64,000 bases of DNA, from contig CM027381.1 in the NCBI GenBank assembly GCA_015680905.1, positions 62,981,501-63,045,500 on the forward strand, given 5' to 3'. The DNA comes from Coptis chinensis. Its lineage: Eukaryota; Streptophyta; Magnoliopsida; Ranunculales; Ranunculaceae. Made by a program: the position numbers and the translations under genes. Positions 49,174 to 64,000 of the stretch are shown here, piece by piece; position 1 is the stretch's first letter; the number at the start of each line of letters is the position of its first letter. Under the pieces are notes generated by a model. That model made no database searches. It saw nothing but the letters and a program-made list of their open reading frames with translations, and was not told where the DNA came from.

Positions 49174-49445
49174 ATGTACGTAATATTTATAGCGTTTCTT
49201 TTATATGGTCCCGCTTATTCATATTTGAAGAATTTTAACTTAATCCATTTTTTTGTTAAAATAGGTCCTAGGAGAATTTTTTGGGACAAAATACTAATAC
49301 TAAATGTAATATATAATTGGTTATATAATCGAGGTTACATAGACCATTTTTATACGAAAACCTTAACTAGGGCTATAAGAGGATTATCAGAACTAACTCA
49401 TTTTTTTGATAGACAAGTAATTGATGGAATTACAAATGGTATTTC
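49174..49445 (+). pseudogene. ndhF: Plastid ndhF C-terminal fragment in nuclear DNA (NUPT)
   Basis: ndhF encodes a membrane subunit of the chloroplast NAD(P)H dehydrogenase. The plus strand reads [54 protein letters not shown] and [20 protein letters not shown] in order, the penultimate region of NdhF. Similarity breaks off after ITNG at about 49440, eight or so bases before the stop codon of a minus-strand CCHC zinc-finger exon. It lacks the N-terminal 600-odd residues and the final helix. The open frame has been kept but it is only a fragment. Confidence 0.75.
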
Positions 49446-49452
49446 GAAAGTG

Positions 49453-49606
49453 TCAGTACCTTCGGCCTGCACACTCCATTAATCTGCCCGATAGGCAGTC
49501 ATATGCCATGTGTCCACATCCACCACAGTTGTGGCATATCATCAAGCCCCCCGTGCAATCCCTGCTCATGTGCCCAACCTGATGGCAGCTCCGGCAAACA
49601 ATGTCT
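49453..49606 (-). pseudogene. CCHC zinc-finger protein (CNBP/GIS2-like), last-exon fragment
   Basis: After a TTACAG acceptor, the minus strand reads RDIVCRSCHQVGHMSRDC, then ICHNCGGCGHMAYDCLSGR and a terminal GRRY followed by TGA at 49455-49453. Both knuckles have the CX2CX4HX4C spacing. This is the C-terminal exon of a plant multi-knuckle CCHC nucleic-acid-binding protein. The upstream exons are not seen beyond the intron at 49607. The frame is intact. Confidence 0.7.
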
Positions 49607-49849: not shown

Positions 49850-50640
49850 TTACTAATGCAGCCCTAAGAGGAGTCTCAACTTTCAAGGCAAGATTGCAAA
49901 AAGGATGAAAGACTTCAGTCCTTGCTTCAACTGAGGAACAATCAGAGGAAGGCAAAGAACTGGACATATCATCAGAACTAAATTTTGTTCTTAAAGGGGG
50001 AGAACTACTCAAACGTACAAGGAAAAAGGTATGGTTCTCCGACAACAACCTTCAAACTTATTTAGGTATTTCAATGTCAATGACTACACGACCCCTTGCC
50101 AATGCACACCCCACAATTCTACACCATTGACTTTAAGATTCCACGAAGATATTTTTGAAGTAGCTCACAGCCTAGAATTTCTAAATTCCATAACGATGTT
50201 GACCAACTAACATGTATTCATGAATACTACGTGCTACCAGGTGCTCTTCATCGGAAGCGAGTTTAGCTTCGATATCAATTCAAATTGGCGGGTAAAAAGA
50301 GTGAGAGATATATATGGACCGACGAATGGAGAAACTATTTTTCCGCTCTGTTTTATTCTTCAAGTCATTACTTATCAATCATCTTTCTTTTATTCCTGAA
50401 CCTTGAATCATATGCAGTGGTTGCTAAAATGAAAAGCGTGGCATATGGTAGGAGCTTTCACAAAAAAGAAAAAGTGTAAGCAAAACTTTATACCTTAAGT
50501 GGTCTTGAATTGCACTGCTCATCTGTGATCAAGCAACATGTCATGCTTTCAGGTGTAGTTTTTGATGTCTGTTTCAATGTTCAACAGTGGCCCGGAAGAG
50601 AAAGCGAAGAAAAACTGCCAAAAGGATGATTGATGCGAAA
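49850..50640 (+). other. Unidentified gene-fragment-like stretches
   Basis: Plus-strand 49855-50085 contains a plausible coding piece (GKELDISSELNFVLKGGELL, then KRTRKKVWFSDN), and 50586-50665, after an ACAG acceptor, reads ARKRKRRKTAKRMIDAKSKR then TWS and stop. An open frame at 50285-50479 lies between. I do not recognise any of them. They may be further captured exons given their neighbours. Confidence 0.3.
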
Positions 50641-50757
50641 TCCAAAAGACAAAAACTGACTTGGTCCTAACCAAACTGCGATAAAAAAAAACGAGAAAAA
50701 ATATTTCCCCACTTTTTCCTAAACTCTTCCACCGATAGAAGTTTAACTAACTGAAGT
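50617..50757 (+). repeat. Direct repeat, left copy (partner 52321-52494)
   Basis: Shares GATTGATGCGAAATCC through TTCCACCGATAGAAGTTTAA with the segment before the Helitron gene, but lacks an internal 53 or so bases (between ATTTCC and CCACTTTTTCC) that include a TATATAG word. Confidence 0.85.
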
Positions 50758-51186
50758 TTAACTAAATACAAGCTGAGAAAGCGAATGTAATGCGTCTTTC
50801 ACATTATTGATTAACTAAGTGGCTCAAGAAGTGAAAGTTTACAGTAATGAGTAACCTTATACTTGCAGTGTTACGAGTACTAAAAGGTTTCCAGCATAAT
50901 TGATTGCCTTATTTTATTTTATTTGCTAAAATAAAATAGCTATACATGAAAGGATTACAACTTACAAGTCGAATCCTTAGCGTAGTGACAACTAGAGTTG
51001 TGTCATCAATAGCTCCCATGTAACGCAGCATCCCATATTCAAGTTCGGCAAAACCCTGCCACACACTAAACATATCTATTTATGTTTATAGTAAGATTGT
51101 TCACAAGGTCTACTTAATTTTATGCAGAACACAATACTTCTATTGTCAAGAAGATAGAATATCGCCTATGTTTGAGCTAACAAGCA

Positions 51187-52318
51187 GTCTACACTCTACA
51201 CAATCTTCTATTTAGTACAGAACAAAATGTAAAGAATGGATTATATAGGTTTAATTACCTCACCCTTACCAAGTCGCGCACCAGTCTTTGGATCACCTGC
51301 AACTGACCGGAATTGAGGTATTATCGACTTCTGGATCCAAGCGAAAGGGGAATGCTAGGACTGATACATTCAAGAAAGTTAAAGTGTTGGAAACCGATGC
51401 TACAAGCATATCCGACAAACAAGAGAAGAAAGAACATTGGTTGCAAAGGGTATCGAAGCAGCAAGGGTGACCACAAAAGAAGGATTCTGCTCCAATGCAT
51501 TTCCACCACAGCAGCAGTTGGAGAGGCAACCGGAGCAGCAGTTGGAGAGGTTACAACCATGCAGGAGGGATGATACCAATACTCTGAGTATTGGAAACTT
51601 ACCTCTTCAAGGTACCCTTGAAAGCTGACCAATCTACTTTCATGGATGACGTTGCTATTGGGTTAGTTCATGGAGCTCGGCTCCCAGCTGACATTGCGTA
51701 CTTCACCCAATACAGGGATGCATCACAGCTTTACAACCACATAGCCAGATGCTTATCATGGGTGAGGCTTTCTGTTTTCCTATTTACTATTGTTATGCAT
51801 GTATTTAGTTCTATCTTTCTTTGTCTTTCTGATTTTTTTTCGTTTCTCATCGCAGGTTATTGGAGCGACTGCAATCTACACTCTACATAATCTTCTATTT
51901 AGTACAGAACAGAGTGTAAAGAATGGATTATAGATTTAATTACCTCACCCTTACCAAGTCGCGCACCAGTCTTTGGATCACCCGCAGAACTCGAATCGAA
52001 TCGAGGTATTATCGACTTCTGGATCAAAGCGAAAGGGGGATGCTAGGACTGATACATTCAAGAAAGTTAAAGTTTTGGAAACGGATGCTACGAGCATATC
52101 CGACAAACAAGAGAAGAAAGAACATTGGTTGCAAAGGGTATCGAGGCAGCAAGGGTGGCCACAAAAGAAGGATTCTGCTCCAATGCCTTTCCACCCCACG
52201 GCAGTTAGAGAGGCAACCGGAGCAGCAATTGAGAGGTTACAACCATGCAGGAGGGATGATACCAATACTCCGAGTATTGGAAACTTACCTCTTCAAGGTC
52301 CTACTGTTTTGAAAATAA
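51187..52318 (+). repeat. Tandem copies of an unidentified gene segment, left group
   Basis: Copy 1 (51187-51875) and copy 2 (51876-52318, shorter) start at TCTACACTCTACA.AATC. Each contains VLSTSGSKRKG.ARTDTFKK then EKKEHWLQRVS, a proline/glutamine stretch, and in copy 1 an exon with STFMDDVAIGLVHGARLPAD and IAYFTQYRDASQLYNHI, then a 95-bp intron (GTGAGG...TCGCAG). The two parts lie in different frames. More copies lie at 61169-62800. The original gene is unknown; the last part resembles C-terminal regions of plant proteins annotated as putative gypsy-type transposon proteins. Confidence 0.65.
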
Positions 52319-52320
52319 GA

Positions 52321-52494
52321 AAGGGTGATTGATGCGAAATCCAAAAGACAAAAACTGACTTGGTCCTAACCAAACTGCGATAAAAAAAATGAGAAAAAAT
52401 ATTTCCTAGAGTGCTACGTCAATTTCCTAAACACACCCAATTTGCACTTATATAGTGTCCACTTTTTCCTAAACTCTTCCACCGATAGAAGTTT
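52321..52494 (+). repeat. Direct repeat, right copy, in the Helitron upstream region
   Basis: Full version of the repeat at 50617. It includes ACTTATATAGTG at about 52446-52457, a possible TATA box 140 bp before the ATG of the Helitron gene, and AGAGTGCTACGTCA, a word often seen near Helitron 5' ends. Confidence 0.7.
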
Positions 52495-52594
52495 AAAAAC
52501 TTAGAAATTAATACCTATTCTATATTCTTCATCTCCAATTCACGCAGTTTACAATAAATATTCATCACATTCATCTTTATCCCTCTCTTCCTCC

Positions 52595-52832
52595 ATGTTC
52601 ATCATTAAGCGTTGGACACCAAAACCAATTCAAAAAAGATTTTTGAATGAAATCTTTGATGGAGAGACCTGCAATCCATGTAAAGATAGAATACAAAATA
52701 TTACCAATGATCTCATACAACATGGTCCTATTTCTGAAAAACAAATAAATAATTGGTTCAAGAACAGGAGAACTAATTTGAAAAGAAAACAAAAAGATAT
52801 GGTCACATGCCCAGAAGAACCAAACAAGCGAA
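52595..52832 (+). pseudogene. Helitron gene exon 1: WOX13-like homeodomain
   Basis: Residues 4-67 form a homeodomain: RWTPKPIQKRFLNEIF at the start, IQNITNDLIQHGPISEKQ in the middle, NNWFKNRRTNLKRKQK at the recognition helix. The WF.NRR signature, the RWTP start and the HG.I.E..I.NWF spacing are those of WOX homeodomains, closest in style to the WOX13 clade. These are DNA-binding regulators of plant development. The exon ends CGAA/GTATGT. With introns of 155, 69 and 78 bp removed, exons 52988-53059, 53129-53359 and from 53438 continue in one frame into RepHel. The homeodomain itself has no stop or frameshift, while RepHel further on is broken. Confidence 0.7.
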
Positions 52833-53128
52833 GTATGTATGCTTTAATAGAAGTAAACTCTACCTTATGTTGTCTATGTACTGAAATTAGTTGCCCTGTC
52901 TATTTTGAGGATTAAACAAATTGTTTCTGCATTTATTGTGCTGCAGACTCCTGTTTTGATCAAGTAATCTTTTTTTTTTGTGTACAGCAACGAAGGAAAA
53001 GGCTGGAAAGAAGACGAAAATAAATCCATCTGGCAAGATTAATCCAAAAAAAAACAGAGGTATGATCAAAATATCACATAATTTACCTTTTAGTTTATTA
53101 TTTGTGACTGATTAAATTTTTTAAACAG

Positions 53129-54435
53129 TTATTACTAAAGAAAGAGCTAGAGAACGACGGTTTAAACGAAGTCAAATATTAAGAAATAAGAGACTTGGTA
53201 TTTCTCCAAATCAGTTCCATTCATATCAACTGAATGATGTTAATATAAATGACGACGATTACCTCTCACAGATTAGTGGGACTGATTCTGAAGATGACGA
53301 TGTCAATGATTTGAATCCAAAAGTGCCACGTATTTGTGATTTGGAAGTTTCACATACAAGTAAGTGTTCTAACACTAAATTATACCGTATTGCTATTTTA
53401 GTGTATGCAATAAAATAATCTAATAATTGTTTTGCAGGAAGTTGTTTTGAGCCTTTAGATATTGGTTGTCCAACTTCAATATGTTCTCATTGTGGAGCTA
53501 TTGTCTGGTATGAAGAAAGGAATGATATGAGCAAAAAACCTACGAATCCTAAATTCTCAATATGTTGTCAGAACGGCAAGGTTCAATTGCCTCTTCTAAA
53601 AGAAACTCCTGAATTTTTTAGAAATCTATTGGATTGCAAAGGTGGACAGAAATCTTCAAATTACATGGAAAACATCAGCATCTACAACTCCATGTTTGCG
53701 TTCACATCCACTGGTGGTGCAGTACAGAGTTCAATTAACAATGGAAAGGGGCCCTTTGTTTATAAAATAAAAGGACAAAATCACAATAAAATAGGAACTT
53801 TGCTTCCACCAGAAGGAGTGCGTCCAAGGTTTGCACAGTTATACATACATGATACAGAAAATGAAGTCTCACACAGGTTGAACTCACTCAGTAAGAAAAT
53901 TGTAAAGAAGAGGGCAAGAGACGAGTTAGATCCTAGCATTGTTCAAGGACTGATAGATATGTTGAATGTTACCAACAAACTCACTGAGATTTATAGAATG
54001 GCAAGGGATAGATTTAAAGAATGTCATGTAGCAGACATCAGCATAAAACTGATTAATAGAAGACAAAAAGATGGAAGACTTTATAATTTACCATCATCAA
54101 TAAAAGTTGCTGGTTTAATTGTTGGTAATGGTGATGAATTTAATGAGCATAGAGATGTTATTGTCGACAAGAAAGGATTTGGATTGAAGAGAATCAATGA
54201 ATTACTTCCAAGTTTCATGGCAATGCAATATCCACTTTTGTTCCCCCATGCTGAAGATGGATATAGAATTGACATTCCATATAGAATCAATAAAGTAGTT
54301 GGAAAAAGAAAAAATATTAGCATGAGAGAATTTTATGCTTTTAGATTGCAACTGAGACACAATGAAGGCCAAACTGTGGTTCGTGGAAAGAAGTTGAGAC
54401 AACAGTTTTGTGTAGATTCTTATACAGCTACTTAA
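53129..54435 (+). pseudogene. RepHel N-terminal region (zinc-binding part)
   Basis: A basic and acidic linker (RARERRFKRSQILRNKRLGI, then an acidic SEDDDVND stretch) leads into the classical Helitron N-terminus: FEPLDIGCPTSICSHCGAIV, WYEER, PKFSICCQNGKVQLPLLKE. Then follow VYKIKGQNHNKIGTLLPPEG, RPRFAQLYIHDTENE, LPSFMAMQYPLLFPHAEDGY and MREFYAFRLQLRHNEG. The two CX2C pairs fit the zinc-finger-like region. The frame stops at a TAA (54433-54435) where RepHel normally continues. Confidence 0.85.
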
Positions 54436-55955
54436 CAAAGTAGAATGGAATGGGTTCGAAATAATCAACAAACAATTCGTGCAGAATTGTATCAAGGATT
54501 AGTAGATGCTGCTATTGCTGGTGACGCGAAGCCTGGTTGTATAGGGAAACGATTAGTTCTTCCTTCATCTTTCACAGGAGGACCCCGTTATATGATACAA
54601 AACTATCAAGATGCCATTGCAATATCATGCGAACCTGCTTGGTGCACCGGATCTTTTCATTACTTTTACTTGCAACCCCAAATGGCCAGAAATTCAAAGA
54701 TGTATAGACATGGTAGCTCCTGGTTATAAACCCGATGATTTTCCCGATATTGTTGCAAGAGTTTTTGAGATTAAATTGCATGAACTGATGACAAACTTAC
54801 AAAAGCGCAAACGATTTGGAAAAGCTTGGGCAGGTATCCTAGATTTACTTTTTTTTTTAATAAGTAATTTATACTTAACAAAATAATACTCATTTTACTT
54901 TGATATAATTTTATTAATGTTTTGCAGCATTATACACTATTGAATTCCAGAAGAGAGGTTTACCACATGCTCACATTTTACTCTTTTTGGACAACGCTTT
55001 GAAGCCTACTACTCCTTCTCAAATCAATAAGCTCATATCTACTGAGTTACCCGACCCAATTGAGGACAAAATTGCATATGAATCAGTTGTAGAATTCATG
55101 ATTCACGGACCGTGTGGTGATGAAAACCCAGCTTCCCCTTGCATGGAAGAGAAGAAGTGTACTAAGTTCTATCCAAAACCTTTTAGTGAAGAGACAACTA
55201 TTGATGACAATGAATTCACAATTTACAGGAGGCGGAATAACAATCGGAATGCAATGAAAAAGAAAATAGAAGTTGATAACAGATGGGCTGTTCCACACAA
55301 TGTAGATTTGATAGTAAAGTACCAAGCTCATATTAATGTCGAACACTGCAACAAGGCCAGATCAATCAAGTACCTTTTCAAATACATTAACAAGGGAAGA
55401 GACAGAGCTACTACAATTATTGTTGAAAACTTGGTTACAGACAACGACAGTAATCATCAAATAGTAAAGGATGTTGATGAAGTTGCAAATTTCTTAGACT
55501 GTCGTTTCTTATCTGCTTCGGAAGCGGTTTGGAGACTATTGAAATTTGATATTCAATACAGAAATCCAGGCGATGAAAGGTTACCATTCCATCTTGAAGG
55601 TCAGCATTTGGTTTATTATAGTGAAAGAGATTATCCAAAAGATGTAATAAATCGGGAAAATGCTTCAAAAACAAAGTTCACAAAGTGGTTTACGGCAAAT
55701 GTTGAGTATCCAGAATTAGCCAGGAATCTTGCGTATGTTGATTTTCCTACTAAATTTGTATCGAATAAAAAAGAAAAGAAGTGGAAGCCAAGGAAAAAAG
55801 GGAAGAAAGTTGGATGTGTGTACTACGCACATCCCACATCAGGAGAGAGATTCTATTTGAGGCTATTGCTGAATATTGTCAAAGGCCCTTTGAATTATGA
55901 GGATATTCAAACTGTTAATGGAAAAGTTTATCTAACTTTCAAAGCTGCATGTCAG
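54436..55955 (+). pseudogene. RepHel HUH Rep nuclease domain
   Basis: The Rep domain nicks and joins single strands for rolling-circle transposition. After MEWVRNNQQTIRAELYQGLV, the sequence shifts frame near 54630 (LLGAPDLFITFTCNPKWPEI). After the intron it reads FQKRGLPHAHILLFLDNA with the HUH motif H-A-H. The catalytic tyrosine pair is visible in RSIKYLFKYINKGRDR (Y-x3-Y). CMEEKKCTKFYPKPFSEET and VDNRWAVPHNVDLIVKYQAH are also typical. The last exon ends CAG/GTATGT at 55955. Confidence 0.85.
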
Positions 55956-56845
55956 GTATGTTTTTAATGACATTTTATCTTTAGTTTATATTAGTTTCTA
56001 ACTTAAATATGTTGTACATAATCTATAAATTAAAAACAATAAGGATTGGATAAATATGTTGTAAATGCATTAAAATAGCTGAAGCTATAACAAATGAAGG
56101 TTAAGTACTAGGAGTCCATATCATCACCATATGATTGTATGGAGAATTAAACATAGAATATCAATTTGTAAATAACATAAGATAAAAATGGGGCATGATT
56201 AAGATCAATGATAAATAGTTATCTTTATAGGCACTAGGGCATAGATACAAAAGAATGGGATTGTTAATTCCTACGAAATAATGGATATGAAAAGTTAGTT
56301 CAACAGCTTATAGCTCCTCAAGGATGCTCTGGAGCTAGACCTCCAAGAACTGCGACACCTCTTATTAGCATCACTTAAAGGAAAGTCATGCATAGAGCCT
56401 ACGTTCATATCACACCAAGATAAGCTTTCATTTCTATTATCGAGTCCAGAAATAGATGATTTTATGATAGCTAAAGTTCACTTTATGGGATAGATACAAA
56501 CCTGACAATTTCTAACTTGATAACGACATCCTGCCGTTTGAGACATTCAAGGTTCAAAAACTGGAAAAAGTAACCATCAAGTATCAAATATATAGTTTTT
56601 ATAGGATTGCCCTAGCAAAGATAAAGAGGCATTCACTTACTATATTCGTCCAAGAAAAACTACAGTTCATGAATAGGGTGGATTACCTGAAAATTAAAAA
56701 ACCAAGTTTAACAAGGTAATAATTAGCCAAAAAGTTACTATCAAAGATATTCACTGTATCAAAATCAAAAATTGAAATTACTGACTAATTTATATTTTGT
56801 ATATTCAAATTCTAATGTATCATTTTGTTAAATTCTTATATCAAG
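55956..56845 (+). other. Long intron or insertion within RepHel (890 bp)
   Basis: It separates FKAACQ from EHGLLEDDIEWDDAM, which are adjacent in RepHel proteins. The donor is CAG/GTATGT and the acceptor TATCAAG/GAG. It is far longer than the other introns (69-155 bp) and contains a coding-like phrase (LKDALELDLQELRHLL near 56316-56365), so it may hold a foreign insertion. Confidence 0.5.
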
Positions 56846-58712
56846 GAGCATGGACTACTAGAGGACGACATCGAATGGGATGATGCTATGGAAGAAGCAA
56901 GCCATTGGCAACTTCCAAAATCTTTAAGGCAATTGTTCGTCACTTTGATACTGCTTTGTGGGGTGACTTATCCTGATAAACTTTTTGAGAAACATCAAAA
57001 GCACCTCGGAGATGATATTTTGTTTCGATACAGAAAGAAAAACAATAATGAGAATCTCCAACTCACTGAAGAACAGATTAGAAATGAGACTCTCTGTGAA
57101 ATTGAACAAATTATGGCTGAAAAAGGATTATCTCTCACAAACATTCCTGATTTCCCGAAATTTGATATGTCTTCAAGGATCTCCACAGAAAACAGATTGA
57201 TTGCTGAAGAATTAGACTACGACTGCAATGAGTTGCGAAAAGAATATGAGATTCTTAACAACGGAATGAACGCTAAGCAGCGTGAGGTATTCAACTCTGT
57301 TAATGATGCAGTTCAGTCTCAATCAGGAGGTGTTTTTTTCGTGTACGGATGCGGAGGAACTGGCAAAACATATCTTTACAAAACAATAATTTCTAAACTT
57401 CGGTCTGAAGGAAAAATTGTTCTTGCAGTTGCGTCGTCTGGGATAGCTGCACTCCTACTTCCAGGTGGAAGGACAGCTCACTCTAGGTTTAAAATTGTTA
57501 TTCCGACTGATGAAAACACCAATTGTGACATCTCTCAAGGGACATTATTACACAACCTTATCAGGCGAGCTGATCTAATAGTGTGGGACAAAGCACCAAT
57601 GACTCATAGACATGGATTTGAGGCTGTAAACCGTACGCTGGAGGACATTTTTAAATCACAAGGCAAAGAATTTGGTGGTAAAACATTCCTAATGGGAGGA
57701 GATTTCGCATGATATTACCACCATTCCAAGAGGCACAAGAACTAATGTTGTTGATGCTTCTATCAACAAGTTAAAATTATGGAAAACCGCAAAGTTTTTC
57801 ACTTAACTCGAGAACATCTTGTTCAAGATTGGAAATATAGACTCATTTCTACAACAAACTCTATTGAAGAGTTTAGAAAATGGGTTTTAGACCTTGGAGA
57901 TGGAAATCACCTTTTTCTAGATTGAGTGATGAAGTGGAATCAACTTGGATCAAAATTCACAAGACTTGCTTATTCCTGAGAGTGATGACCCAGTAGAAGA
58001 TATTGTGTCGTGCATATATCCGGATTTGGTCAACAAATATACAGATGTTCAGTATCTCAAAGAAAGAAGCATTCTAGCCCCGAGGAACAAAACGGTTGAT
58101 GAAATTAACTCTACAATAATTTCAGAACTCCCGACAGAACTGAAGACATACTTAAGTGCAGACTCACTAAGTCCAATTGAAGGTAAACATGCTGAATAAG
58201 ATGTTCTATACCCGACAGAATTCTTAAACACTCTTGAATTTTCCGGCATACCAAACCACAAACTGGATTTAAAACTTGGTGTTCCTATTATGTTAATGAG
58301 AAACATTAATCAGAGTCACGGACTATGCAATGGTACTAGGATGATCATCACAAAATTGGCTTCGAAAGTTATATATGCAAATATTATTATAGGGAACAAA
58401 GTAAGAGATCCAGTTTTCATTCCAAGAACAGTATTGTCACCAAGCGATACGAAATGGCCGTTTGTATTCAGAAGGAAGCAATTCCCTGTAAAAGTTTGTT
58501 TTGCTATGACCATAAACAAAAGCCAAGGACAAACTTTCGAAAAAGTTGGAATATATTTGCCAACACCAGTTTTCACGCATGGACAGTTATATGTTGCAGT
58601 TTCAAGAACAACATCACGAGAGGGACTGAAGTTTTTGATCAAAAGGAATGGGAACGAGCCTGAAGGACACACACAAAACATTGTCTATAAAGAAGTGTTC
58701 AATTCCATCTGA
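56846..58712 (+). pseudogene. RepHel PIF1-type helicase domain
   Basis: SF1 helicase that unwinds the donor strand. Walker A is GCGGTGKTYLYKTI near 57350. Walker B reads LIVWDKAPMTHRHGFEAV, with K where the family has E, so ATP hydrolysis would be lost. After LMGGDFA (57712) the expected RQ-containing segment is deleted and the frame breaks, and stops follow. The C-terminal motifs are intact at 58290-58710: IMLMRNINQSHGLCNGTR, VCFAMTINKSQGQTFEKVGI and VFTHGQLYVAVSRTTSREGL. The terminal stop is at 58710-58712. Confidence 0.85.
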
Positions 58713-58754
58713 AGGTTTTAACACTAAAGGTATTTTCTAAAACTAATGACTATT

Positions 58755-61150
58755 ATATTTTTGATATTAAAATGGACCTGACACAGCTCTAATTATGTTG
58801 GTTTGTGTTGCAGTGTACCCTAAGTTAAACATAGTTATAGGACTAAGTCGCGCACCAGTCTTTGAATCACTAATGACTATTATATTTTTGATATTAAAAT
58901 TGACCTGACACAGCTCTAATTATGTTTGTTTATGTCGCAGTGTACCCTAAGTTAAACATAGTTATAGGACTAAGTCGCGCACCAGTATTTGGATCACCTG
59001 CAACTGACCAGAACTGAGGTATTATCGACTTCTGGATCCAAGCGAAAGGGGGATGCTAGGACTGATACATTCAAGAAAGTTAAAGTGTTGGAAACCGATA
59101 CACAAGGTGAAAAAACAAACTCATGCCATCTTCTTAAAGATTGAAACAAATTGAATGATTTATCTTCAACTCTCTGCAGCAAAACTGACACTAGATCAAA
59201 TATGCTACCCTATATCCGGCTCTGATTTGCTTCTCTATTGTTACCGTAATTTGTTCATGCATGCTTTGATAGTTTGCTCGATTCGGGAATGAGACCAGAC
59301 TTTTTCGCTTCGCTTATTTAAACATTTGGAAGGCTGGTTTTAGGTAGTGTAGTGAGATAACCCTGTAAGTCCAGAACCTTTAAAAGTCTGTTTCCATCGA
59401 TAAAGTGGGTTTAAATGATGTGGTGAACTTCTAACCCCGCACACCTTCTTAATAGATTCACTAGAAACTTGCTTGCTCTCCCGTAGGCGTAAAGCAATCG
59501 ACGTCCCCATCCAAATTAACACCATTAACAGGCGCCCCCCATCCATCACATAGCCACACCGAGACCCTTGGTTAAACCCTAGTGAAATTATGTTGGTTTG
59601 TGTCGATAAAGTTAAACATAGTTATAGGACTAAGTCGTCGCACCGCCTTTTGAATCACTAATGACTATTATATTTTTGATATTAAAATGGACCCGACCAC
59701 GCTCTAATTATGTTGGTTTGTGTCGCGAACCCTAAGTTAAACATAGTTATAGGACTAAGTCGCACACCAGTCTTTGGATCACCTACAACCGATTGGCGAG
59801 GGTATTATCGACTTACGGATCCAAGCGAAAGGGGATGCTAGGACTGATACATTCAAGAAAGTTAAAGTGTTGGAAACCGATACACAAGGTGAAAAAAAAA
59901 CAACTCACACCATCCTCTTAAAGATTGAAACAAATTGAATGATTTATCTTCAACTCTCTGCAAAGAAAACCGACACTAGATCAAATATGCTACCCTCAGA
60001 TCTGTTGGATTGCTTCTATTGTTACCAAATTTCATGTGTCTTTGATAGTTTGCTCGGTTCAGAATGGGACCCGACTTCTTTATCGCTTCGCTTATTTAAA
60101 CATTTGGAAGGCTGGTTTTAGGTAGTGAAGTGAGATAACCCTGTAAGTCTGTAACCTTTAAAGCTGTGTTTCCATCAGATAAAGCGGGTTTAAATGATGT
60201 GGTGAACTTCTAACCCTGCACACCTGCTTAATAGATTCAGCTAGAAACTTGCTTGCTCTCCCGTGGGCAGAAAGCAATCAGACGTCCCATCCAGCTCTAA
60301 CACCATTAACAGACGTCCCATCCATCACATAGCCACACCGAGACCCTTGGTTAAACCTGACACAGCTCTAATTATGTTGGTTTGTGTCACAGTGTACCCT
60401 AAGTTAAACATAGTTATAGGACTAAGTCGCGCACCAGTCTTTGAATCACTAATGACTATTATATTTTTGATATTAAAATGGACCTGACACAGCTCTAATT
60501 ATGTTGGTTTGTGTTGCAGTGTACCCTAAGTTAAACATAGTTATAGGACTAAGTCGCACACCAGTCTTTGGATCACCTACAACTGACCGGAACTGAGGTA
60601 TTATCGACTTCTGGATCCAAGCGAAAGGGGGATGCTAGGACTGATACATTCAAGAAAGTTAAAGTGTTGGAAACCGATACACAAGGTGAAAAAACAAACT
60701 CACACCATCCTCTTAAAGATTGAAACAAATTGAATGATTTATCTTCAACTCTCTGCAGCAAAACTGACACTAGATCAAATATGCTACCACCAGATCTGGC
60801 CGACCGCTTCTCTATTATTACCAAATTGTTCATGCGTCGATAGTTTGCTTTCGATTCGGGAATGAGACCGGCTTTTATCGCTTCGCTTATTTAAACATTT
60901 GGAAGGCTGGTTTTAGGTAGTGAAGTGAGATGACCCCAGTAAGTCTGTAACCTTTAAAGCGTGTTTCCATCGGATAAAGTGGGTTTAAATGATGATGTGG
61001 TGAACTTCTAACCCCGCACACCGCTTAATAGATTCACTAGAAACTTGCTTGCTCTCCCGTAGGCGTAAAGCAATCGACGTCCCATCCAAATCTAACACCA
61101 TTAACTTTATGGTTCACATAGCCACGCCGAGACCCTTGGTTAAAGCCCCA
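58755..61150. repeat. Three tandem higher-order repeat units of about 790 bp
   Basis: Each unit carries a 127-130 bp sub-repeat (ACACAGCTCTAATTATG...TAAACATAGTTATAGGACTA) present twice, then GTCGCGCACCAGTCTTTGG, the VLSTSGSKRKG start, then a block from ACACAAGGTGAAAAAAC to GAGACCCTTGGTTAAA. The word ACACAGCTCTAATTATG occurs (with small changes) near 58773, 58903, 59690, 60354 and 60481. It lies directly downstream of RepHel and shares pieces with the copies at 51187 and 61494. Confidence 0.75.
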
Positions 61151-61168
61151 CTTTAAAGCACAAGATGA

Positions 61169-62800
61169 AAAGAGTCTTCCATTCAGGTCCTACTGTTTTG
61201 AGCCCTGAGTTTTTCATTGGTGGAAATCCTGAAAATGGACCCTTGAAAGCTGACCAATCTACTTTCATGGATGACGTTGCTCTTGGGTTAGTTCATGGAG
61301 CTCGGCTCCCAGCTGACATTGCGTACTTCACCCAATGCAGGGATGCATCACAGCTTTACAACCACATAACCAGATGCTTATCAGTGGTGAGGCTTTCTGT
61401 TTTCCTATTTACTATTGTTATGCATGTATTTAGTTCTATCTTTCTTTGTCTTTCTGATTTTTTTTCGTTTCTCATCGCAGGTTATTGGAGTGACTGCAGT
61501 ATACACTCTACACAATCTTCTATTTAGTACAGAACATAGTGTAAAGAATGGATTATAGATTTAATTACCTCACCCTTACCAAGTTGCGCACCAGTCTTTG
61601 GATAACCTGCAACTGACCGGAACTGAGGTATTATCGACTTCTGGATCCAAGCGAAAGGGGGATGCTAGGACTGATACATTCAAGAAAGTTAAAGTGTTGG
61701 AAACCAATGCTACAAGCATATCCGACAAACAAGAGAAGAAAGAACATTGGTTGCAAAGGGTATCGAGGCAGCAAGGGTGGCCACAAAAGAAGGATTCTGC
61801 TCCAATGCCTTTCCACCACAAAGAGTGGTGGAGAGGCAACCGGAGCAGCAGTTGGAGAGGTTACAACCATGCAGGAGGGATGATACCAATACTCCGAGTA
61901 TTGGAAACTTACCTCTTCAAGGTCCTACTGTTTTGATCCCTGAGTTTTTCATTGGTGGAAATCCTGAAAGCTGACCAATCTACTTTCATGGATAACGTTG
62001 CTCTTGGGTTACTTCATGGAGCTCAGCTCCCAGCTGACATTGCGTACTTCACCCAATACAGGGATGCATCACAGCTTTACACCCACATAGCCAGATGCTT
62101 ATCAGGGGTGAGGCTTTCTATTTTCCTATTTACTATTGTTATGCATGTATTTAGTTCTATCTTTCTTTGTCCTTCTGATTTTTTTTCGTTTCTCATTGCA
62201 GGTTATTGGAGCAACTGCAGAGCTTAACAACCGTGTTGTAAGGTCTGGTCCCTGCATGCTCGAGATGGAAAAACTACTCCGAGTATTGGAAACTTACCTC
62301 TTCAAGGTCCTACTGTTTTGAGCCCTGAGTTTTTCATTGGTGTAAATCCTGAAAAGGGACCCTTGAAAGCTGACCAATCTACTTTCATGGATGACGCTGC
62401 TCTTGGGTTAGTTCATGGAGCTCGGCTCCCAGCTGACATTGCGTACTTCACCCAATCTGAGGGGATGCATCATAGCTTTACACCCACATAGCCAGATGCT
62501 TATCAGGGGTGAGGCTTTCTATTTTCCTATTTTACTATTGTTATGCATGTATTTAGTTCTATATTTCTTTGTCCTTCTGATTTTTTTTCGTTTCTCATCG
62601 CAGGTTATTGGAGCGACTGCAGAGCTTAACAACCGTGTTGTAAGATCTGATCCCTGCATGCTCGAGATGGAAAACCTACACTCTTCCCTGAGTAAGCTTG
62701 AAAACAATCTAACTCGCACTCATTTGGAGCTCCAAGCAACCAGTATGAGCACTCACAAACAGGCGGAGAAGATTACAAGTCCTTATAAGTAAGATTATAT
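61169..62800 (+). repeat. Tandem copies of the unidentified gene segment, right group
   Basis: Three further copies: 61169-61493 (exon and intron), 61494-62214 (with the SGSKRKG part), 62290-62792. The exon phrase GPLKADQSTFMDDVALGLVH is repeated, each followed by a 95-100 bp intron from GTGAGG to TCGCAG or TTGCAG. The last copy has the longest 3' exon: VIGATAELNNRVVRS, EMENLHSSLSKLENNLTRTH, LELQATSMSTHKQAEK then a stop at about 62792, a coiled-coil end. Confidence 0.65.
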
Positions 62801-63169: not shown

Positions 63170-64000
63170 ATAGCAACCCATCATTAGAGACAGTTTTTGG
63201 TGGAATAGAGTCATGGAATTCAAGTTTAGATTGTTGTCAATAGGACTTGGTCACCTGCAACCCCGCTCACCTTCAAGAAATGTTGTCACGCTTGATATTT
63301 ACTCATTTGTTACTTCACTGGCTCCAGAGGTTGTTGTAAAATCAGCAGTGTTAGCACCATTGTTTCGTATAACAACTTTGACGAAGCTTGACATCTCCTC
63401 CAATTCTATACAAGGTGAACTCCCAACAAATGGGATTGCCAACTTTATCAAGTTGCTTCACCTAGACTTGAGGGAAAATAGCTTCAATGGATCCATTCCT
63501 ACTAAATTGTTCTGTTTACAAAGGCTACAATACCTTGATATGAGTAGTAATATGTTAAATGGAATCCTTAGTCAAGAAGTAGGCGCCCTTCGGAAATTGA
63601 GAGTACTGAACTTAGCTTAAAATTTCCTCTATGGAGAGATTCCTATGGAAATTGGAAATCTAACACAGACCAAGGCAATTGTCGCCGAGAATAGATTCTC
63701 TGGTGGGCTTTCAAATTCACTTTTGCATTTAACTGAGCTCCAAGTCTTGGATTTGCGCAACAACTCTCCATCAATGCAAATTCCTACCAACACTAGAACT
63801 TTATCCAATATTTCAACTATAGCCTTAAGCAAGAACCAGTTGACTGGTGGAATACCTTTGTCATTACAGAATTTGAACAATATATAGTTAATGGATATCA
63901 AGGCGCTGAGGAAACCTTGGAGGAAACAACTTTACTTGGAACAACAATGCTAATAAATCTCCAAAGTGCATGTTGTCTCAGTTGTCTTTGAGGTCATGTC
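63170..64000 (+). pseudogene. LRR receptor-like protein, N-terminal part, broken
   Basis: The N-terminal cap reads WNSSLDCCQ then TAG where W is expected, DLVTCNP, and shifts frame into SRNVVTLDIYSFV. Leucine-rich repeats follow with LTKLDISSNSIQGELPTNGI, LLHLDLRENSFNGSIPTKL, LQYLDMSSNMLNGILSQEVG, LRVLNLA (then TAA at 63618-63620), NFLYGEIPMEIGNL, LQVLDLRNNSPSMQIPTNT and ISTIALSKNQLTGGIPLSL, then a TAG near 63887. The repeats have the plant extracellular LxxLxLxxNxLxGxIP form of RLP/RLK surface receptors. At least three stops and one frameshift make it a pseudogene. It continues past the window end, so a kinase domain cannot be judged. Confidence 0.8.

Follow-up and report, generated by a model that had tools for sequence, protein, structure and literature searches.

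In this study, we found a complete homeodomain of the WUS/WOX type in front of a broken RepHel gene in the window (the whole 64,000-nt stretch of DNA that was analysed, which is A+T-rich with 37% G+C), and a predicted spliced frame that runs open from the homeodomain into the RepHel. The best explanation, which we consider probable, is that a degenerate plant Rep/PIF1-helicase Helitron acquired a WUSCHEL/WOX-family homeobox exon at its 5' end from a host WOX gene, and that the transposase gene came to use the captured exon as its first coding exon. From this exon the gene would have both its start codon and a DNA-binding domain that reads sequence, and phase-1 introns and a lysine-rich linker would connect the homeodomain to an ordinary RepHel. 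The earlier note had proposed a captured host homeobox, and our results support this as the best reading, as a WUS/WOX-type homeodomain stands in frame with a RepHel, unlike in the 120 relatives listed. The features of the region, with predicted splice sites, are as follows.

52407..52458, plus strand: possible promoter, a 52-bp segment containing TATATA (52449-52454)
52595..52832, plus strand: exon 1, ATG and complete WUS/WOX-type homeodomain, 79 codons and 1 nt
52833..52987, plus strand: intron 1, GTATGT...ACAG, phase 1, 44% T
52988..53059, plus strand: exon 2, lysine-rich linker, 72 nt, no in-frame ATG
53060..53128, plus strand: intron 2, phase 1, 45% T
53129..53359, plus strand: exon 3, 231 nt, basic tract (KERARERRFKRSQILRNKR) and acidic stretch, weak similarity to P0068
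53360..53437, plus strand: intron 3, phase 1, 40% T, boundaries ambiguous by 4 nt
53438..54841, plus strand: exon 4, RepHel N-terminus (CSHCGAIVWYEER) and start of Helitron_like_N, 3' boundary approximate
54927..55955, plus strand: Rep part, LPHAHI (HxH) and KYLFKYINKG, lesion-free, boundaries approximate
56852..58712, plus strand: PIF1-type helicase and 2B domain, GGTGKT present, stop codon 58710-58712

The translation of exon 1 (MFIIKRWTPKP...NNWFKNRRTNLKRKQ...) is a full homeodomain, which matched PF00046 above the curated cut-off (1e-10). Against the PDB, STENOFOLIA (1.1e-8) and WUSCHEL (3.4e-7) led among the 55 sequences listed, and PBX1 came third at 0.022. The trait of the WUS/WOX homeodomain family, long loops and a Trp directly after a DNA-contacting Arg, is present in exon 1. 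Identical residues were found at 22 of 63 positions aligned with WUSCHEL (6ry3) and at 22 of 66 aligned with STENOFOLIA (6wig), and the latter alignment has no gaps over its 66 residues, which indicates that exon 1 has the same long loops. Passages of PMC7203112 describe that in WUSCHEL R38, Q89, N90 and R94 read bases, that W39 anchors the arm and that R94 confers the TGAA preference. Exon 1 retains R38 with W39 directly after it, and N90, all of them WUS-type traits described there, and differs by Q89K and R94N, so that two of the four base-reading residues are changed and NHKARER reads NRRTNLK. The change at R94 suggests that the TGAA preference was probably lost, and both changes together make an altered or decaying specificity likely; judged from the residues, they would represent either a new specificity or early decay. 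Bicoid-type homeodomains are known to have a lysine at this site, classical position 50. Exon 1 also differs from WUSCHEL and STENOFOLIA in that it belongs to no transcription factor gene.

The NRR...KRKQ ending of exon 1 presumably resembles that of WOX13 proteins, the clade ending in NRRARSKRKQ. In angiosperm WOX13-clade proteins, ESExE just downstream of the homeodomain and YxDpl between the WOX13 motif and the homeodomain are described in passages of PMC2584047. ESExE was absent from the spliced 512 residues and from the three plus frames of 50000-52594, and no YxDP was found upstream of exon 1 on the plus strand of 50000-52594. In these two motifs, the gene model differs from the WOX13 clade (Arabidopsis WOX10/13/14) on the plus-strand stretches tested, which weakens the label WOX13-like that the earlier note gave to the homeodomain. 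When the N-terminal residues 1-180 were searched against the whole protein database, 160 candidates were scored and none reached E<=0.001, and residues 1-80 of this query gave 3 candidates and none at E<=0.01; these negatives are weak, because the search required shared 5-residue words and failed to return even genuine WOX proteins. Viral contigs scanned for a homeodomain-bearing N-terminus gave no match. Two bacterial matches of the genome-contig scan were rejected as chance, one sitting in a histidine-kinase-like locus as judged from its ORF (L001) and the other matching over 20 residues (L002).

The in-frame connection was found in 2 of the 12 splice-site combinations tried in narrow ranges, and these two paths are alike except at intron 3, where both ends are displaced by 4 nt (53359/53438 or 53363/53442). 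The predicted spliced frame is open for 512 residues, up to the first RepHel stop. It agrees with the earlier note, which had described a complete homeodomain in exon 1, now borne out by the translation, the Pfam match and the WOX proteins of the PDB, and three introns of consistent phase joining one frame, which are all of phase 1 at the predicted sites. With a stricter site filter, the exon 3 acceptor fails the pyrimidine cut, and only the paths exon 1-exon 2-exon 4 and exon 1-exon 4 pass. Because the introns are of phase 1 and the lengths of exons 2 and 3 are divisible by three, the skipping paths are also in frame, and the in-frame join is therefore less demanding than three independent coincidences.

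The base composition follows the predicted exon boundaries. T content was 130/302 in all introns versus 131/541 in the exons (p=2.9e-8), and 99/242 with the final 20 nt of every intron excluded (p=4e-6). By pairs, it was 68/155 in intron 1 versus 55/238 in exon 1 (p=2e-5), 31/69 in intron 2 versus 8/72 in exon 2 (p=9e-6) and 31/78 in intron 3 versus 68/231 in exon 3 (p=0.09). The methionines of the predicted spliced protein stand at 1, 69 and then 211, and the conserved CSHC motif begins at 196. No in-frame ATG before CSHC...WYEER was found in exons 2-4, nor when these exons were extended upstream as far as a first stop, so exon 1 supplies the sole upstream start codons found. The T-rich introns and the missing ATG support one gene. 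The alignment with P0068, a RepHel of Orobanche hederae, passes in one stretch from exons 2-3 to exon 4 (7.6e-9 among 120 sequences), and the basic tract of exons 2-3 is also present in several RepHel relatives. A long N-terminus is usual in these proteins, with 9 to 689 residues (median 151) before the conserved motif in the 94 of 120 relatives where it is recognisable. Taken together, these data make the homeodomain-RepHel fusion probable as a gene model, with splicing predicted from the DNA letters.

The RepHel homology to five relatives spans 53437 to 58709. The Rep domain matched PF14214 in two pieces, one above the cut-off (3.5e-18) and one below it (1.2e-5), and we take its LPHAHI to be the HxH of the HUH domain. 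The PIF1-type helicase downstream of Rep matched PF05970 (3.1e-58) and PF21530 (2.5e-24). Over 4,295 aligned nt, the RepHel carries two in-frame stops and five frame changes, alike against P0002 and P0003. Exon 4 contains an in-frame stop ending at 54435 and a frame change near 54637. In the helicase, four frame changes lie at about 57707-57956, and the second in-frame stop is at 58199. The intact RepHel reading frame expected of an autonomous Helitron is absent, and this copy cannot make the full RepHel protein.

These lesions confirm that the helicase is broken, as the earlier note had stated; its hint that the unbroken homeodomain points to selection was not upheld. The lesion rate of 1.63 per kb gives 0.39 lesions expected in the 238 nt of exon 1, and the probability of none is about 0.68 (Poisson), or 0.41 for exons 1-3 together. 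Exon 1 is therefore expected to be lesion-free about two times in three, and its intactness is no sign of selection. The rate is uneven, as five of the seven RepHel lesions lie within 57707-58199, and without this cluster an unbroken exon 1 is likelier still. The 1,029-nt Rep block is lesion-free as well.

The same calculation bears on a reading that we regard as possible and somewhat unlikely, namely that the exon was captured and spliced to the RepHel as a mere source of a start codon and promoter and that the homeodomain never bound DNA usefully. Chance alone explains its intactness, and the changes Q89K and R94N fall on base-reading positions. Moreover, TATATA sits 141 nt 5' of the exon 1 ATG, within the 52-bp segment; the surrounding 52320-52497 is near-identical to 50621-50746, 1.7 kb upstream, which lacks this segment. 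On the other hand, the residues that serve the fold and the reading of the minor groove and of adenine (R38, W39 and N90) are retained, which argues against this reading.

The surroundings of the element allow a different account, which we hold to be unlikely: exon 1 would be a host WOX remnant or an independent small homeodomain ORF, a Helitron would have inserted just downstream, and the in-frame splice path would be accidental. When exon 1 is read through intron 1, it forms a separate homeodomain ORF of 106 residues with a stop at 52915, and exon 1 could therefore be a separate small gene. The RepHel is flanked by one rearranged tandem array (51184-52312 and 58742-62700), whose gene-like modules are 86-98% alike and gave no Pfam match in the two ORFs tested. 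The 5' end of the element was not located, and few coincidences are needed for the frame, as all introns are of phase 1. Against this account, exons 2-4 of the RepHel have no other upstream ATG, and the T-rich introns fit the exon model. Furthermore, tblastn found no other WOX-like sequence in the window (next best match E 0.28), and the two WOX13-clade motifs are missing from the plus strand from 50000 on. That exon 1 and the RepHel were joined during assembly of a repeat-rich region is very improbable: flanks so alike are a known assembly risk, but the open frame and the intron composition continue across the putative join, and the self-comparison of the window shows no repeat within 52500-58712.

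Plant Rep/helicase Helitrons have a 5' TC and a 3' hairpin followed by CTRR, and they insert between A and T. A Helitron 3' end (hairpin-CTRR-T) was not found at 58700-62800 on the plus strand with the settings used, where 0.06 were expected by chance. Elsewhere in the window, 63174-63620 holds a leucine-rich-repeat frame (PF13855, 3.2e-11) with an in-frame stop and then a further open stretch. The translation of 49180-49470 resembles the end of plastid NdhF, which we presume to be plastid DNA in the nucleus.

If a WUS/WOX-type exon was captured as the first exon of the transposase gene, its likeliest use in a living ancestor would be a double-strand DNA contact added to a protein whose other work is on single strands. 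This contact may have been made at the ends of the element itself or at preferred target sites, and a simpler benefit would be the supply of a start codon and promoter. DNA targeting and promoter capture are both roles that the homeodomain exon may have had. A stronger form of the idea, which we hold to be quite improbable, is that the homeodomain with Q89K and R94N (Lys at the classical position 50 and Asn at 55) read a new sequence, either the ends of its own element or selected landing sites, so that Helitron targeting would look programmable. TTCATC or its complement occurs three times in 52400-52594 versus 0.25 expected (3/1000 shuffles), all three in the leader at 52525-52590; this excess is not counted as evidence, because it was first noticed by eye and four motifs were tried in three regions. 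TGAA, TAAT and TAATCC were not enriched near the element.

To our knowledge, how Helitrons choose their start and landing sites is poorly understood. If the fusion is true, a homeodomain-bearing transposase would provide a direct handle on this choice, and it would also be a plain example of transposon machinery made from a developmental transcription-factor domain.

The comparison with known Helitron proteins was based on a RepHel search in which 8,000 candidates were scored and 5,125 reached E<=0.001, and the best 120, nearly all from plants, were listed. The precomputed Pfam column shows PF00046 in none of these 120 best of 5,125, and a phmmer search with the homeodomain against the 120, with filters off, gave a best E of 0.11 (6 bits). 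To the earlier note, a WOX homeodomain was unfamiliar as the N-terminal domain of plant RepHels, and the count of 0 among the 120 listed agrees with it. The best relative listed shares 48% identity with the window's element over 93% of the part searched, and identity in Rep is at most 54% among the 120, which suggests that the element's own subfamily is not among the relatives listed. In a Rep-domain tree of 119 of the 120 relatives and the window's element, the latter stands on a long branch (0.44) beside P0094 and P0027 with a weak support of 0.64, a placement that is uninformative on the homeodomain. It weighs against the proposed fusion that it is known from one broken copy whose ends were not found, and that no close relative with the exon is among the 120 listed.

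Helitrons and Helentrons are described in passages of PMC4067079 and PMC4289320 with RPA, OTU protease, endonuclease, SET and zinc-finger parts, and no homeodomain is mentioned there. Helitrons near WOX genes, without fusion, are described in parts of PMC6482515 and PMC5501002, and the literature search for a homeodomain in a Helitron protein gave no description among the matches listed.

The plant RepHels, such as P0002 (Quercus lobata LOC115991053) and P0003 (Lotus japonicus LOC130715411), share CxxC...WYEER, Helitron_like_N/Rep and the PIF1 helicase with the window's element in the same order, and differ from its gene model by having no homeodomain in any of the 120 listed. Among six chosen proteins, P0073 and P0078 have an RPA-type domain before Rep that passes the Pfam cut-off, and P0088 has one there that falls below the cut-off. 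In P0005 and P0026 the domain lies further downstream, towards the C-terminus, and P0103 showed none. P0073 (Smallanthus) and P0078 (Helianthus) thus also carry an extra N-terminal DNA-binding domain (DUF223, residues 7-61 and 14-101), but it is an OB-fold single-strand binder where the window's RepHel has a homeodomain. As the N-terminal extras found here in plant RepHels are of the RPA type and bind single strands, a reader of double strands would offer help of another kind, and the homeodomain fusion would vary an already known architecture. From these sequence comparisons, the homeodomain in a RepHel appears to be a new pairing, absent from the 120 nearest relatives listed, within a group of proteins where N-terminal DNA-binding additions are already known.
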